A stretch of 8,918 nucleotides of DNA from Candidatus Zhuqueibacterota bacterium (GTDB lineage: Bacteria; BS750m-G25), in the NCBI GenBank assembly GCA_016783505.1, contig JADHWK010000077.1, positions 1-8,918 on the forward strand, in the 5' to 3' direction. The translations under genes and the position numbers were made by a program. Position 1 is the first letter of the stretch, and every line of letters starts with the position of its first letter. A model generated the notes under the pieces. The model did no database searches and was not told the DNA's origin. It was given only the letters and a program-made list of their open reading frames with translations. Of this stretch, positions 3,768-8,909 are shown piece after piece.

Positions 3768-4475
3768 TCAGTTTATCCCCCTCATAAAGTTGGGAGAACC
3801 ATCAAAAGAAATATGACCATTCTTTATCACAATCACCCTTTGGGCTAAACGGGCCACCATTTCCAGATCTTGTGATATCAACAGAATGGTCCTTTGATCG
3901 GTATGATATTTTCTCAAAATCCCCTCGATTTTCTTCGTCCCCCCCCAATCCAGTCCCACCGTTGGTTCATCCAGGATCAAAAGTTCAGGTTCCATCACCA
4001 GAATACTGGCCAGGGCCACCCGGCGCTGTTCCCCGTAGCTTAGGGTGAAACAGGACCGCCGGACAAAGGAAACAAAGTCCAGTCCCACCATTTCCAGAGC
4101 GCGACGGATTTTTAAGTCCAGTTCACGATCATTCAAGCCGAAGTTCCGGGGTCCGAAGGCCACCTCGTCGTAAACGGAACCGGCGAAGAACTGGCTCTCC
4201 GGGAACTGGAAAGCAAGACCGATCCGGCGGCGAACATCCAAGATGTCCGCTTCCTTCCCGGCAATATTGATCCCATCCACCTTAACCACACCTTTCTGGG
4301 GTGTTAAAAGCCCGTTGAAGAGTTTCACCAGGGTGGTTTTCCCCGCCCCGCTGCGGCCCACCAGCCCCACGAATTGTCCCCCCTCAATGGTCAGGCTGAT
4401 CCCGTTCAGCACCGGATGCTCCCCTCCCCCAAAATCCGTATAAGCGAAATGAACGTCCTTAAGTTCTACTTTCAT
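3768..4475 (-). CDS. ecfA2: ECF transporter ATPase (EcfA/CbiO family), second of a pair
   Basis: A 235-residue ABC ATPase that would power an energy-coupling-factor importer for a vitamin or metal (the S component, not seen, would set the substrate). In order: Walker A GRSGAGKTT (40-48), Q-loop Gln90 in FQFPESQ, signature LSYGEQ (145-150), Walker B ELLILDEPT (164-172) and D-loop GLD (174-176). FQFPESQ and the overall length are typical of EcfA/CbiO rather than LptB-type ATPases. The switch loop reads LLISQDLEM, with Gln202 where a His is usual; the codon is CAA, checked in the bases. The signature Gly is Tyr (LSYGE). It follows its sister gene after a 234-bp gap, and an EcfT gene, usual in the next position, is replaced by the cassette array. 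The symbol reflects gene order only. Confidence 0.85.
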   Translation of the reverse strand: MKVELKDVHFAYTDFGGGEHPVLNGISLTIEGGQFVGLVGRSGAGKTTLVKLFNGLLTPQKGVVKVDGINIAGKEADILDVRRRIGLAFQFPESQFFAGSVYDEVAFGPRNFGLNDRELDLKIRRALEMVGLDFVSFVRRSCFTLSYGEQRRVALASILVMEPELLILDEPTVGLDWGGTKKIEGILRKYHTDQRTILLISQDLEMVARLAQRVIVIKNGHISFDGSPNFMRGIN

Positions 4476-4709
4476 CTTACTGATTCTCTATAATAAACCC
4501 CAGGACAAAAGGGGAGCTAATCCTCCTGTTTCTCTATATTAATTAAAACCGGTTGAGTTTAACCCAAAATTCACTAGGGCGAAGGTGTCTCACCGAAGCC
4601 CCAAACTTTTATAACTCCACCGGCCTTCGGGCAAGAATGGCCTTCAAATGTTGAACATTTCCAATATTCGTTATCACATTTCACACTTCGCACTTCACAT
4701 TTCGCACTT
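4476..4709. other. intergenic spacer between the two ECF ATPase genes
   Basis: Unusually long for an ATPase pair. It holds the heptamer array at its right end, a 15-base palindromic repeat AAATGTT-G-AACATTT (4646-4660), and a short GCC-TTCG-GGC hairpin near 4623. An AGGAGGA on the minus strand near 4521 is not followed by a start codon at normal spacing. CCAAACTTTTATAA (4601-4614) recurs exactly at 2883-2896 inside an attC loop, perhaps by chance. I see no gene. Confidence 0.5.
4675..4709. repeat. five-copy heptamer tandem repeat
   Basis: Exactly five 7-bp units: CACATTT, CACACTT, CGCACTT, CACATTT, CGCACTT (consensus C-R-C-A-Y-T-T). They end at the base before the stop codon of the upstream ATPase gene. 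On the minus strand the units read as AAGTGCG and AAATGTG variants, so the array starts right after translation ends. Confidence 0.8.
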
Positions 4710-5426
4710 TCATCCAGAAGGTACCCCAATTCCCCACTCCTTTAGTTGGGTTGAATGGTTAAACACCTTGCTGGGTTGATCGTCATAGGCGATCTTTCCC
4801 CGATGGAGAATCAGGAGGCGATCGGCAATAAGGGCTTCATCAGGATAGGGGGTGATAAAAAGGATGGCCATTTTCCCCTTCATTGAGAGCATAAATTTTA
4901 AAAAATCGTCCCGGTCCTGGGGGTCTAATAAGGTAGTGGGTTCGTCAAAGATTAACCCCGTTGGTTCCATGACCAGAACAGAGGCTAGGGAGAGCCGGCG
5001 CTTTTCCCCCCCGGAGAGCTGGCTGGGGGAACGGTGACGATGGTCTAACAACTGATAAGCGGATAGATGTTGTTCCACCTTTTCCCGCAATTTCACTGGC
5101 TCCACGCCCCTATTTTCCAGCCCAAAGGCGATCTCCTGCTCTACTGTCGGGGCTACAAATTGATGGTCGGGGTTCTGAAAGACCAGCCCTAACGACCCTT
5201 CGGGTTCCCTGGAGGGATCCACTAGATTACCGTTAATAAAAATCCTGCCGGACAGCGGGGTTAACAGACCCTTCAGCAGCAAAGACAGGGTGGTTTTCCC
5301 TGACCCGTTGGCCCCCATCAGGGCCACCCATTCATCTCCCCCAATATTGAATGAAAGCCCATCCAGAACCCGAATTTTTATCCCGTCCGTTTTATATTCA
5401 AAAATGAGGTCGTGAACGGCAATCAT
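4710..5426 (-). CDS. ecfA1: ECF transporter ATPase (EcfA/CbiO family), first of a pair
   Basis: A 238-residue ABC ATPase, the likely heterodimer partner of the following gene. In order: Walker A GANGSGKTT (38-46), Q-loop Gln84 in VFQNPDHQF (the classic EcfA/CbiO form), signature LSGGEKRR (137-144), Walker B TGLIFDEPTT (156-165) and D-loop LLD (166-168). The switch loop reads LFITPYPDEAL, with Pro193 where the family has His (ITH..DEA); the codon is CCC. The rest of the fold is intact, so this is not simple decay. The start ATG at 5426 has a weak ribosome site. Only 21 bases before it, the minus strand reads CGTTAGAATAT, a copy of an attC R' core seen at 1277-1267. Cytoplasmic, peripheral to the membrane. 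Confidence 0.85.
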   Translation of the reverse strand: MIAVHDLIFEYKTDGIKIRVLDGLSFNIGGDEWVALMGANGSGKTTLSLLLKGLLTPLSGRIFINGNLVDPSREPEGSLGLVFQNPDHQFVAPTVEQEIAFGLENRGVEPVKLREKVEQHLSAYQLLDHRHRSPSQLSGGEKRRLSLASVLVMEPTGLIFDEPTTLLDPQDRDDFLKFMLSMKGKMAILFITPYPDEALIADRLLILHRGKIAYDDQPSKVFNHSTQLKEWGIGVPSG

Positions 5427-5537: not shown

Positions 5538-5687
5538 TCTATCTCACGTCTGCCATCTTAAACTTCCTATCTATGAATCTTCCCGAGTCAGTATGGGTAG
5601 ATATATTTATATGAATTATTTTATAATTTTATTGACCCCATATGAAGGGATGATTACCACAAAGTTTATACTTCATCCTATTTACAA

Positions 5688-5722
5688 GTCCTCCATATTA
5701 AGGGGGGATTTAGGGGGGTGTT
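5688..5722 (+). repeat. left G-run repeat flanking the DUF559 pseudogene
   Basis: The + strand reads GTCCTCCATATTAA, then G6, ATTTA, G6, TGTT. The right flank, read on the minus strand from 6206, gives GTCATCCCCCCATATAAA, G6, AACAAA, G7. The two are clearly related and inverted with respect to each other around the gene. Confidence 0.65.
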
Positions 5723-5740
5723 AAAACATACTGGATGCTA

Positions 5741-6124
5741 TTAAAGCGTTATCCTTCCTTCTTTTTCCTCCCTCTCAATCCAATCCCCAATAACTGCTAT
5801 CACACCTTCTATATTGTTCTTTATATCAGAATCATAAAACCTTAAGAATTCTATGTCTTGTTTTTCGATTTCCCTCTGTCGTATCTTATCCCCTTTGAAC
5901 TTGTCTTTATGGCTGATGCCATCAATTTCAATCGCCAAACGGAGTCTGCTGCAATAGAAATCCCCCCATGTAATTCCCAATAGGTTTTTGCCGGGTGAAT
6001 TTATAGCCTTCTATCTGTCCTCCTTTGATCTGCATCCAAAGTAGAACTTCATATAAAGTGCCTTTCCTACGCAATTTTCTTGAGAGTGCTTTGAGTTTTG
6101 GTTGTAATAAATTTTCTTTAACAT
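5741..6124 (-). pseudogene. DUF559 (Vsr-like PD-(D/E)XK nuclease fold) gene broken by two frameshifts
   Basis: From ATG 6124 the frame reads MLKKIYYN, then shifts. Adding one base at 6100/6101 restores PKLKALSRKLRRK. Removing one G from the six-G run (C6 at 5962-5967 on the + strand) then joins RQKPIGNYMG to DFYCSRLRLAIEIDG. The repaired product is about 127 residues, the usual DUF559 size, with the conserved KPIGNY, D-F-Y and E-I-D positions of the nuclease core. The two shifts have opposite sign, so the first and last segments share a frame. Without repair, translation from 6124 stops after some 37 codons. The longer open stretch beginning at 6245 only reads through the G-run repeat and is unlikely to be the true start. 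Decay or homopolymer sequencing error are both possible; the six-G site could be either. Confidence 0.75.
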
Positions 6125-6130
6125 GTCTTA

Positions 6131-6206
6131 AACACCCCTCTTTTATTCCCCCCTTCTTAGGGGGGACTACCCCCCCTTTGTTCCCCCCTTTATATGGGGG
6201 GATGAC
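6131..6206 (-). repeat. right G/C-run repeat with two hairpins, upstream of the DUF559 pseudogene
   Basis: Two hairpins are visible: CCCCCC-TTCTTA-GGGGGG (6148-6165) and CCCCCC-TTTATAT-GGGGGG (6183-6201), separated by a C7 run (6170-6176). The segment 6131-6153, read on the minus strand, ends G-rich then GGGGTGTT, like the inner end of the left repeat (5702-5722). The right side looks like an expanded or duplicated version of the left. Confidence 0.65.
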
Positions 6207-6378
6207 CACCTTACTTTTCTCCGTCCATGAATATGAAATCTTCAAATCTCATTAAGATGAAAGAACTTTTGGAACCTTCGAGTACAGTTATCGAATATTT
6301 GATTACCCCCTCCAAATCCGGGATGACCTTATCTATTTTCATGCCTTAGTGTCTTTGTGGCTGGACTATTATGGTTTT

Positions 6379-7680
6379 TCAATGTATTTGAATGTTCCGG
6401 ATCAGAAAATCGCATACCCTCTGAGTAGCCCCCAGATTTTCCATTACCAACCGTTTAGCTTCCTCACCAGCGCGATGCAGTCGTTCCCTATCCGATAAAA
6501 AAGAACTGAATAATTGATAAAAATCCTCTTGCGTATGCACCATAAACCCGCCCCCACAGGCCATCAGCGTTTGCGCCTCCGGGGAAACGTGGATCCTGGG
6601 ACCGAAAAGGACGGGTATGCCGTAGACAGCCGCCTCCAGAACGTTGTGCAACCCGGCACCAAACCCCCCCCCCACATAAGCGATTTCACCGAGCCGGTAG
6701 ATCTCGGCAAGGATACCCATCCTGTCTATCAAAATAATCTTTTCATCGCCCAGAGCCTTCCCATCCAGCCATCGGCTGTAATGAATGAGTGACAGGTGAT
6801 GGGAACGGCACAGGCTTTCGATTTCGGCGAGGATGGGGTCGGAGGGCTCATGGGGAACCAGGATAAGCAGCAGATGGTTCTCTTCAGCGGATAATCTCGC
6901 AAATGCGGGAAGAAGGCGACAATGACAGGGGGGCCAGGTGCTGCCAGCGACGATGACCCTTTTCCCTTTAAGCTCCCGGCCTAACTTTTCAATTTCATCC
7001 TTAGAACAAAGCGACCGTTCGGACACCCGGTCATACCGGGAATCCCCAAACACCTGAATATTGGTGCGTTCCCCCAGCACAGCCCTGAAGCGCCGGCCTT
7101 CTTCCTGGGTAGCTGGAAGAATAAAGTCAAAGCTGCCGAATATGCTTCGGGTGAAGCTTCGGATCATGGGATGAAACCAGGGGGATTTGGCGGGGAAGGC
7201 GGCGTTCAAAAGCACCGTCCACACCCCCCTTGCCCGGGCCTGCCAGAGGTGATTGGGCCAGACGTCATGCTTGGTAATGATCATCGCCGTGGGATTGACT
7301 ATGTCTAAAAATCTTCTGGCATTCCTGATCGAATCAAACGGGAGATAGCAGACCACATCAGCCCCCTGATAATCCTGGATATTGGAAAAGACCGAGGGGG
7401 AGAAACAGGTGAGAGCAATATTGGGACGGGGTGATTTTTGACTCAAGAGATCTATAACCGGCTTCACTTGCTCGAACTCACCGGTAGAGGCACAATGAAA
7501 CCAGAGAGTAGGTCGGGTCGGGTCTGTCCCTGACATATCTTCCCTAAGCCGGGGAAAAAGTCCCCTTCTTCCCCTAACTCCATTACGGATCTTTCCCACC
7601 AAGGGGCTCAATATCCAAAAGCCACAATAAAGTAAGGGGATGACTATCACATTATAAAATATTTTCCAGAGATTATCCAT
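6379..7680 (-). CDS. waaA: Kdo transferase, WaaA/KdtA family
   Basis: About 433 residues. It transfers Kdo from CMP-Kdo to lipid A precursor, the first step of LPS core assembly, at the inner face of the inner membrane. Numbering here is from an upstream GTG (7686). An N-terminal membrane helix spans about 10-30 (NVIVIPLLYCGFWIL). The N-domain has WFHCASTGE (62-70); its Glu70 matches the proposed catalytic base. KHDVWPN (138-144), GDSRYDRV (213-220) and AGSTWP (246-251) follow. The C-domain has GGGFGAGLHNVLEAAVYG (338-355), the CMP-Kdo-binding hallmark. The length fits WaaA. ATG 7680 is preferred over GTG 7686 because AGGTGG lies just before it. Oddities: KHDVWPN replaces the common E-T-E-x-W-P-N, and WPPCHC replaces the usual acidic WPxDE. 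A Kdo-like sugar or divergent clade is possible. Confidence 0.88.
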   Translation of the reverse strand: MDNLWKIFYNVIVIPLLYCGFWILSPLVGKIRNGVRGRRGLFPRLREDMSGTDPTRPTLWFHCASTGEFEQVKPVIDLLSQKSPRPNIALTCFSPSVFSNIQDYQGADVVCYLPFDSIRNARRFLDIVNPTAMIITKHDVWPNHLWQARARGVWTVLLNAAFPAKSPWFHPMIRSFTRSIFGSFDFILPATQEEGRRFRAVLGERTNIQVFGDSRYDRVSERSLCSKDEIEKLGRELKGKRVIVAGSTWPPCHCRLLPAFARLSAEENHLLLILVPHEPSDPILAEIESLCRSHHLSLIHYSRWLDGKALGDEKIILIDRMGILAEIYRLGEIAYVGGGFGAGLHNVLEAAVYGIPVLFGPRIHVSPEAQTLMACGGGFMVHTQEDFYQLFSSFLSDRERLHRAGEEAKRLVMENLGATQRVCDFLIRNIQIH

Positions 7681-7747
7681 ACCCACCTATGATCAGTACA
7701 TCACAATCAGTCAAGACTATGTCGAATTGTCTGAATTTCAAAAAGTT

Positions 7748-7763
7748 CCCCGAAACTTCGGGG
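7748..7763 (-). terminator. intrinsic terminator between the heptosyltransferase and waaA
   Basis: CCCCGAA (7748-7754) pairs with TTCGGGG (7757-7763). On the minus strand the stem is followed by AACTTTTTG. It lies about 85 bases past the stop of the heptosyltransferase gene and 68 bases before waaA, so waaA probably has its own promoter or depends on partial read-through. On the + strand no T-run follows. Confidence 0.6.
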
Positions 7764-7788
7764 CCTAAATTTCAAAAAAATTATTTCA

Positions 7789-7800
7789 AAGGAGCTCCTT
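7789..7800. repeat. 12-bp palindrome AAGGAGCTCCTT
   Basis: A perfect palindrome in the waaF-waaA gap, between the stop codon and the terminator hairpin. It is followed on the minus strand by TTTGAAATAATTTTTTTG, so it could act as a second, weaker stem of a tandem terminator. Confidence 0.4.
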
Positions 7801-7847
7801 ATTGTAAAAATTTCTGAGATTTTTGAACTTATGGCAATTTTAGAAAT

Positions 7848-8909
7848 TTAACCCTTTCTATTATCATTTTGATCTACCAATGATATAATATCTCGAACTG
7901 CAGCCAACCCCTCCTCTGCGGAAATGTCCGCCATGCATCGAAAATGCCCCCGGGGACAGCGGGTTGATCCCAGATGGGAACAGGGCCGGCAGGGGAGATC
8001 TTTTTGGAGAACCACACTCCGGATGCGGAAGGGGAAGAAACCAAACTCCTCTACCGTGGGACCGAAAAGGGCCACCACCGGTTTCTTTAGGGCGGCGGCC
8101 ATATGCATGATGCCGTTATCGTTGGTAACCAACAGGGTGCATTTTTCTACCAGGGCCCCGGTTTCCAAAAGATCTAATTTCCCGGATAGATTCATGGCAC
8201 TATTCCCGATGGCAACGGCAATCCATTCACAAAGGCCCCGTTCTTTCTCATTTCCAAACAGGATCAGGTTGGCATGATAATCTTTAATCAACCTTTTTCC
8301 CAGCCAGGTAAATCTTTCTTTGGGCCAGCGCTTGGTGGGATGACCAGCCCCGGGGGCCATTCCAATCAAGGGATCACCCGGGTTTAAGCCACCCTTTATG
8401 AGCTCCACCTCCGCCCTTTCCCGGCTCTCCTGGGGGATGAAGAATTCTAACCCCAGACCGTCATCCTCGACCCCAAAAGCCCTCACCGCCCTGATGTAAA
8501 TTAATGGTATGGAGGGGGAACTTCTGTAAAGGTTCAAACCAAAGGCCACCAATAGGAAGCGTCGCCACAACCCTTTGTGACTCTTGACTACCAGCCCGGC
8601 TCCGGAAAAATGCCGCAGGTAAACGGTGCGTAAATTTTTATGAATGTCCACCACCAGGTCATATTCCCTGTCCCTGATCGCCCGTTTTATCTCCTTTAGT
8701 CCATGCCAACCCGTTCGGGGTTCATAGGAATAGATATGATTGAGGCGAGGATTGTGACGTATTAATGGCTCAAACTGGTTTTTCACCACGAAATCTATTT
8801 CGGCACCGGAAAACCTTTGCCTGAGCACCCTCAACAGGGGGCTAGTCAATAAAATGTCCCCTATGGAACTTAAGCGAAGAATCAGAATTTTTTTGGGTGC
8901 TGTTACCAT
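7848..8909 (-). CDS. waaF: ADP-heptose:LPS heptosyltransferase (GT9, WaaF-like)
   Basis: A 353-residue GT-B glycosyltransferase of family 9, which adds L-glycero-D-manno-heptose from ADP-heptose to the LPS inner core on the cytoplasmic side. The N-domain opens with ILRLSSIGDILLTSPLL (10-26), the family's acceptor-side signature, then YDLVVDIHKNLRT (83-95). The C-domain has GMAPGAGHPTKRWPKERF (183-200), the usual nucleotide-loop region, and NDNGIMHMAAALKKPVVALF (263-282), the GT9 donor-binding hallmark, with N-D-N-G where N-D-S-G is common. A Cys-rich end (CRPC at 307-310, CP at 318-319, GHFRC at 321-325) matches the typical WaaF-type tail. The start at ATG 8909 lies only 9 bases from the window edge, so its ribosome site cannot be seen. 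WaaC or WaaQ are alternatives; I favour WaaF from the Cys-rich tail. Confidence 0.85.
   Translation of the reverse strand: MVTAPKKILILRLSSIGDILLTSPLLRVLRQRFSGAEIDFVVKNQFEPLIRHNPRLNHIYSYEPRTGWHGLKEIKRAIRDREYDLVVDIHKNLRTVYLRHFSGAGLVVKSHKGLWRRFLLVAFGLNLYRSSPSIPLIYIRAVRAFGVEDDGLGLEFFIPQESRERAEVELIKGGLNPGDPLIGMAPGAGHPTKRWPKERFTWLGKRLIKDYHANLILFGNEKERGLCEWIAVAIGNSAMNLSGKLDLLETGALVEKCTLLVTNDNGIMHMAAALKKPVVALFGPTVEEFGFFPFRIRSVVLQKDLPCRPCSHLGSTRCPRGHFRCMADISAEEGLAAVRDIISLVDQNDNRKG

Follow-up and report, generated by a model that had tools for sequence, protein, structure and literature searches.

The histidine of the switch loop is a general feature of ABC ATPases, and this canonical residue is absent from both ECF (energy-coupling factor) ATPases, motor proteins of a class of importers for vitamins and metals, encoded in the stretch of DNA analysed here, which raises the question whether such a pair can still drive transport. 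The whole stretch, referred to as the window, is the complete contig C17 (8,918 bases) of a metagenome-assembled genome of 2.5 Mb that is 60 percent complete. None of the sampled relatives of this genome is nearer than the same domain.

Two ECF ATPases without the switch histidine

The window encodes an EcfA1-type ECF ATPase of 238 aa (4710..5426) and an EcfA2-type ECF ATPase of 235 aa (3768..4475), and both genes, with all the motifs given below, lie on the minus strand. EcfA1 was recognised by NCBIfam, Pfam ABC_tran and a solved homologue; its best NCBIfam model is TIGR04520 ECF_ATPase_1 (E 4.9e-70; 236 bits, under the curated equivalog cutoff of 315) and it matches the solved EcfA1 9kym_A at E 1.4e-46. 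EcfA2 was recognised by NCBIfam, with TIGR04521 ECF_ATPase_2 as the best model (E 3.2e-77; 259 bits, under the curated equivalog cutoff of 330), and by its match to the solved EcfA2 4mki_B (E 8.8e-54). The Q-helix that follows the Q-loop in ECF ATPases has the consensus X-P-D/E-X-Q-hydrophobic (PMC6828968), and it is matched by NPDHQF in EcfA1 (5157..5174) and by FPESQF in EcfA2 (4188..4205). Elsewhere in the genome, an EcfT with the coupling motifs SRG and ARG is encoded before truA on contig C89 (E 5.6e-42) and a PF12822 S-component candidate is present on C68 (E 4.5e-9); BioY as an S component was not found in this 60 percent complete genome. The best models, the Q-helices, EcfT and the S-component candidate all support membership of the pair among the ECF ATPases. 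In the relatives checked, ecfT also lies apart from the ecfA genes (about 3.6 Mb away in G057), so a rearrangement was rejected as the reason why ecfT does not adjoin ecfA.

Upstream of ecfA1, positions 6379-8909 of the minus strand carry a KDO-transferase (waaA-like) gene and a gene for a glycosyltransferase of family 9 (heptosyltransferase), which suggests an LPS-bearing cell. Between these and ecfA1, a DUF559 gene (5741-6245, minus strand) is split into overlapping frames for its N-terminal half (5928-6245) and its C-terminal half (5741-5980) and is apparently frameshifted. Repeats rich in G/C runs, of which two are direct copies and the third is inverted, surround it at 5687-5721, 6134-6165 and 6169-6200. 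A search of the window for RNA elements and tRNAs found none.

The initial annotation had reported proline in the first ATPase and glutamine in the second where His is expected. This was borne out by an alignment of 380 ATPase sequences, EcfA1 and EcfA2 together, in which Pro193 of EcfA1 (CCC, 4848..4850; motif ITPY) and Gln202 of EcfA2 (CAA, 3870..3872; motif ISQD) share one column, as do the Walker A Lys, the Q-loop Gln, the Walker B Asp-Glu and the D-loop Asp of the two proteins. This column holds His in the solved structures 4mki_B and 2yz2_A aligned to EcfA2 and in 9kym_A and 4huq_B aligned to EcfA1, so the idea that the catalytic His is located elsewhere was rejected. The canonical H-loop His is thus gone from both halves, as had been claimed. 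A scan of named genomes, which returned mostly Bacillota loci, found the switch His in 78/78 EcfA1 and 75/75 EcfA2, and its absence from both members of one pair is therefore beyond chance. No second, canonical ecfA pair was evident in the 60 percent complete genome, where 11 matches with E up to 1e-10 were found and the best one besides the window pair has an E value of 3.4e-27.

All other motifs had been described as kept, and this holds for Walker A, the Q-loop and Walker B in both proteins: EcfA1 has GANGSGKT (5292..5315) and GLIFDE with the catalytic Glu162 (4941..4958), and EcfA2 has GRSGAGKT (4335..4358) and LLILDE with the catalytic Glu170 (3966..3983). It does not hold for the signatures. 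That of EcfA1, which faces the EcfA2 Walker motifs, is an intact LSGGE (5004..5018), whereas that of EcfA2, which faces the EcfA1 Walker motifs, is LSYGE (4029..4043), with a degenerate third residue, Tyr replacing the first Gly of LSGGQ. EcfA2 is also short, 235 aa against a median of 283 in its relatives, its C-terminus lacking about 45 aa. Shortening by a frameshift was rejected since the downstream DNA holds no credible C-terminal remnant.

Asymmetric ATP sites in the relatives

The closest relatives of the window EcfA1 (43-46 percent identity) all carry Gln at the switch position. Candidate division KSB1 was sampled through the 82 genomes of the phylum to which G044 belongs (71 EcfA1 and 70 EcfA2 counted), a phylum that was taken as KSB1 because the EcfA1 on G089:C189 is identical to that of the KSB1 contig L049. 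The switch residue of EcfA1 is Gln in 69/71 and His in 2/71 in this sample, and Gln in 7/7 in two phyla neighbouring KSB1 (6/6 in the phylum of G054, plus G057). Wider lineages have Gln in several more cases, Pro in G230, Ala in G356 (with LSFGE) and Thr or Asn in others. Judged by this distribution, loss of the switch His is an old trait of EcfA1 in several phyla. As the residue is absent from nearly all EcfA1 of the clade, it is no criterion for EcfA1 membership. In one KSB1 genus, L191 and L188 (genomes G136 and G135) combine an EcfA1 with His (ITHFAPEA) with an EcfA2 with LSQGE, possibly a reversion of EcfA1.

The EcfA2 proteins of these phyla show the converse pattern. All 70 from KSB1 keep the switch His, but the third residue of their signature is other than Gly in 57/70 (E 45, Q 7, D 2, S 1, A 1, Y 1), while the LSGG signature Gly is present in 71/71 KSB1 EcfA1. 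In the phylum of G054, EcfA2 has the switch His in 4/4 and LSSGE in 4/4. EcfA1 and EcfA2 of G057 are fused in one ORF of 578 residues with the switch and signature pattern of KSB1, and the fusion in a single frame argues that the two act as partners. The fused gene (L260, 3534-7218) stands directly downstream of larB-like and larC-like genes (nickel-pincer cofactor), recognised by eye; these would suggest that the substrate in G057 is a metal.

In an ABC dimer, each ATP site combines Walker and H-loop motifs from one subunit with the signature of its partner (PMC7756269), and the switch loss in EcfA1 and the signature loss in EcfA2 therefore fall in one composite site. The changes are indeed concentrated there, as P193 with LSYGE in the window and as Gln with LSxGE in the clade, where the opposite site has His and LSGG. 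The replaced residues, and the asymmetry of the sites across the clade, are plain in the sequences. Replacement of the Walker B Glu in the degenerate site, another mark of degenerate/consensus asymmetry, was not seen, this Glu being kept in all surveyed EcfA1 and EcfA2; an intact His at the consensus site, a further mark, is missing in the window genome only (Gln202). Among 44 pairs of the wider sample, loss of the EcfA1 His was, in a plain count, associated with loss of the EcfA2 signature (Fisher p 0.011), and a kinship-aware test, with too few independent pairs, was non-significant. Coordinated degeneration of the EcfA1 switch and the EcfA2 signature is likely from these patterns.

The EcfA2 switch His was found in 134/135 surveyed pairs, the window being the sole exception, and on the tree the H/Q change takes one step, at the row of the window. 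This loss is peculiar to the window genome. The initial annotation had treated the two losses as one event, which does not agree with an old loss in EcfA1 shared by several phyla and an H-to-Q change in EcfA2 of this genome only. On its question whether close relatives share the two residues, the EcfA1 relatives also lack His, mostly having Gln, but the EcfA2 relatives keep it. By this comparison, the window pair is an asymmetric set of ECF ATPases: its degenerate site is shared across the clade, and its predicted working site has undergone a further change, from His to Gln, in this genome. Other ABC ATPases, arranged in tandem or fused (L297, L298, L304, L308, L309, L310, L312, L314, L318, L323), carry an LTKG signature in one domain and have His in both, unlike the window and KSB1 pattern.

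A proposed one-site motor and its alternatives

We consider it more likely (probability about 0.58) that the pair forms a working, possibly slower, asymmetric one-site ECF motor than that it is dead or has a regulatory role only. In such a motor, site 1 would consist of the Walker A/B motifs and Pro193 of EcfA1 together with LSYGE of EcfA2; it would be degenerate, probably binding ATP but hydrolysing it inefficiently, as in TAP and MRP1. Site 2, made of Walker A/B and Gln202 of EcfA2 with the intact LSGGE of EcfA1, would be the working site, where Gln202 could still hydrogen-bond the gamma-phosphate, so the motor probably turns, perhaps slower. We infer that site 1 would be non-hydrolysing and site 2 hydrolysing, and that the pair would drive transport. 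The working motor is favoured because, according to PMC7756269 (citing Yang and Chang 2007), loss of the NBS1 His of MRP1 has little effect and only Gln or Asn at the switch of the consensus site, NBS2, keeps near wild-type transport. It is also supported by the site asymmetry of the clade and its counterpart in TAP, by the EcfT and the S-component candidate in the genome, by an EcfA2 branch that shows no acceleration and by the fit of both Q-helices to the ECF consensus.

Published results also speak against it. Replacement of the His by Ala, Asp, Arg or Tyr is near-fatal in HlyB (H662A), HisP and MalK, and H/Q itself, it is argued, could block a proton relay (both PMC6222333). In the ECF transporter of L. 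delbrueckii, which has ATP at EcfA and ADP at EcfA', a Walker B mutation in either ATPase abolishes activity (PMC10368641), which leaves hydrolysis at a single site of an ECF module as a prediction; a literature search found no ECF module in which it is established. The fuller statement, that this is a natural ECF motor without any switch His in which a clade-wide, TAP-like degenerate site is combined with Gln as gamma-phosphate sensor at the consensus site, is put forward tentatively, at somewhat under an even chance.

Early decay of the pair, in which EcfA1 tolerated a Q-to-P change and EcfA2 lost its His and C-terminal helices, the transporter being no longer needed, seems unlikely but has several features on its side. 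The H-to-Q change of EcfA2 is unique, and no recognisable C-terminal remnant of this short protein (235 aa against the median of 283) is present downstream. Departures from near-invariant columns number 4/38 in EcfA1 and 2/28 in EcfA2, each joint highest in its set, and the end branch of EcfA1 is long (1.65-1.73 against a median of 0.48; 1.80 for EcfA1 of G061). The long branch and the roughly 45 aa missing from EcfA2 are compatible with weakened constraint. On the other hand, both frames are intact, the phosphate-binding and Walker B residues are all present, both Q-helices fit the ECF consensus, and the codon-position GC resembles that of the neighbouring waaA. The EcfA2 branch (0.98, against 1.10 in G057 and 1.42 in G061) is as unexceptional as those of EcfT (0.92) and TruA (0.98) in the same genome, and by this similarity the window lineage is simply divergent. 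The separation of ecfT from ecfA is no sign of breakdown, since G057 and other relatives checked show the same split, and Gln is among the mildest replacements known (PMC7756269). Gross decay of EcfA2 is not supported by these comparisons.

It is improbable that the pair binds ATP with negligible hydrolysis and serves as a switch operated by ATP binding, either to release or retain S components or to regulate EcfT. Such a switch would suit the missing canonical H-loop in both sites and the report that the S component is expelled by ATP binding and not by hydrolysis (PMC10368641). However, the catalytic Walker B Glu is present in both proteins, a module that did not hydrolyse ATP should presumably remain closed once it had fired, and MRP1 tolerates Gln (PMC7756269). 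More improbable still is an assembly or sequencing error at one or both codons of this metagenome-assembled sequence. The residues come from a single genome that is 60 percent complete, CCC and CAA are each one base from a His codon and the Pro193 codon lies inside a CCCCC run, but two independent errors would have had to strike the same catalytic column with both frames undisturbed, the relatives make loss of the EcfA1 His expected, and G230 has acquired Pro at this position independently. Altered hydrolysis or a regulatory role, and not simple decay, had been proposed at the outset for the loss of both residues. The evidence leans against decay, as proposed; a regulatory role need not be invoked, since Gln at the consensus-site switch is tolerated in MRP1 (PMC7756269) and EcfT and a candidate S component are present.

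Comparison with known systems

Like the Group II ECF module EcfA1-EcfA2-EcfT (4huq/9kym; 5d3m from L. delbrueckii), the window encodes two ATPases of the EcfA type, each with the ECF Q-helix motif, and the genome has an EcfT that carries two coupling motifs of the form X-R-X, as well as a PF12822 S-component candidate. The solved homologues aligned and all Bacillota relatives have both His, whereas the window pair has neither; its EcfA2 signature is LSYGE, and ecfT is found at a different locus from the ecfA genes. The proposed one-site motor has a close parallel in the immune transporter TAP1/TAP2 (ABCB2/ABCB3), where H/Q in TAP1 and the change of LSGGQ to LAA/VGQ in TAP2 fall in one composite site (PMC6222333). 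TAP is an exporter with another membrane part, however; TAP1 has a Glu-to-Asp change in Walker B where EcfA1 keeps Glu, and TAP2 keeps the switch His that EcfA2 of the window lacks. A literature search found no description of a TAP-like degenerate composite site in ECF transporters. The H-loop mutants of MRP1 (ABCC1), with a dispensable His in NBS1 and one replaceable by Gln or Asn in NBS2 (PMC7756269), offer a further likeness, but they were engineered in a eukaryotic exporter, while the window holds a natural ECF pair.

The nearest sequence relatives are the KSB1-type ECF ATPases, with ITQF in EcfA1 and VSH, often with LSEGE, in EcfA2. They share the site asymmetry of the window pair but keep the EcfA2 His where the window has Gln, and have Gln in EcfA1 where the window has Pro. 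In KSB1 and neighbouring phyla, the ECF motor carries one composite ATP site that is degenerate, at the two positions also altered in TAP. This asymmetry makes it possible to ask, in a natural setting, whether two hydrolysing sites are required by ECF importers, and the window pair would further test whether, in nature, Gln can stand in for the switch His at what would be the only working site.
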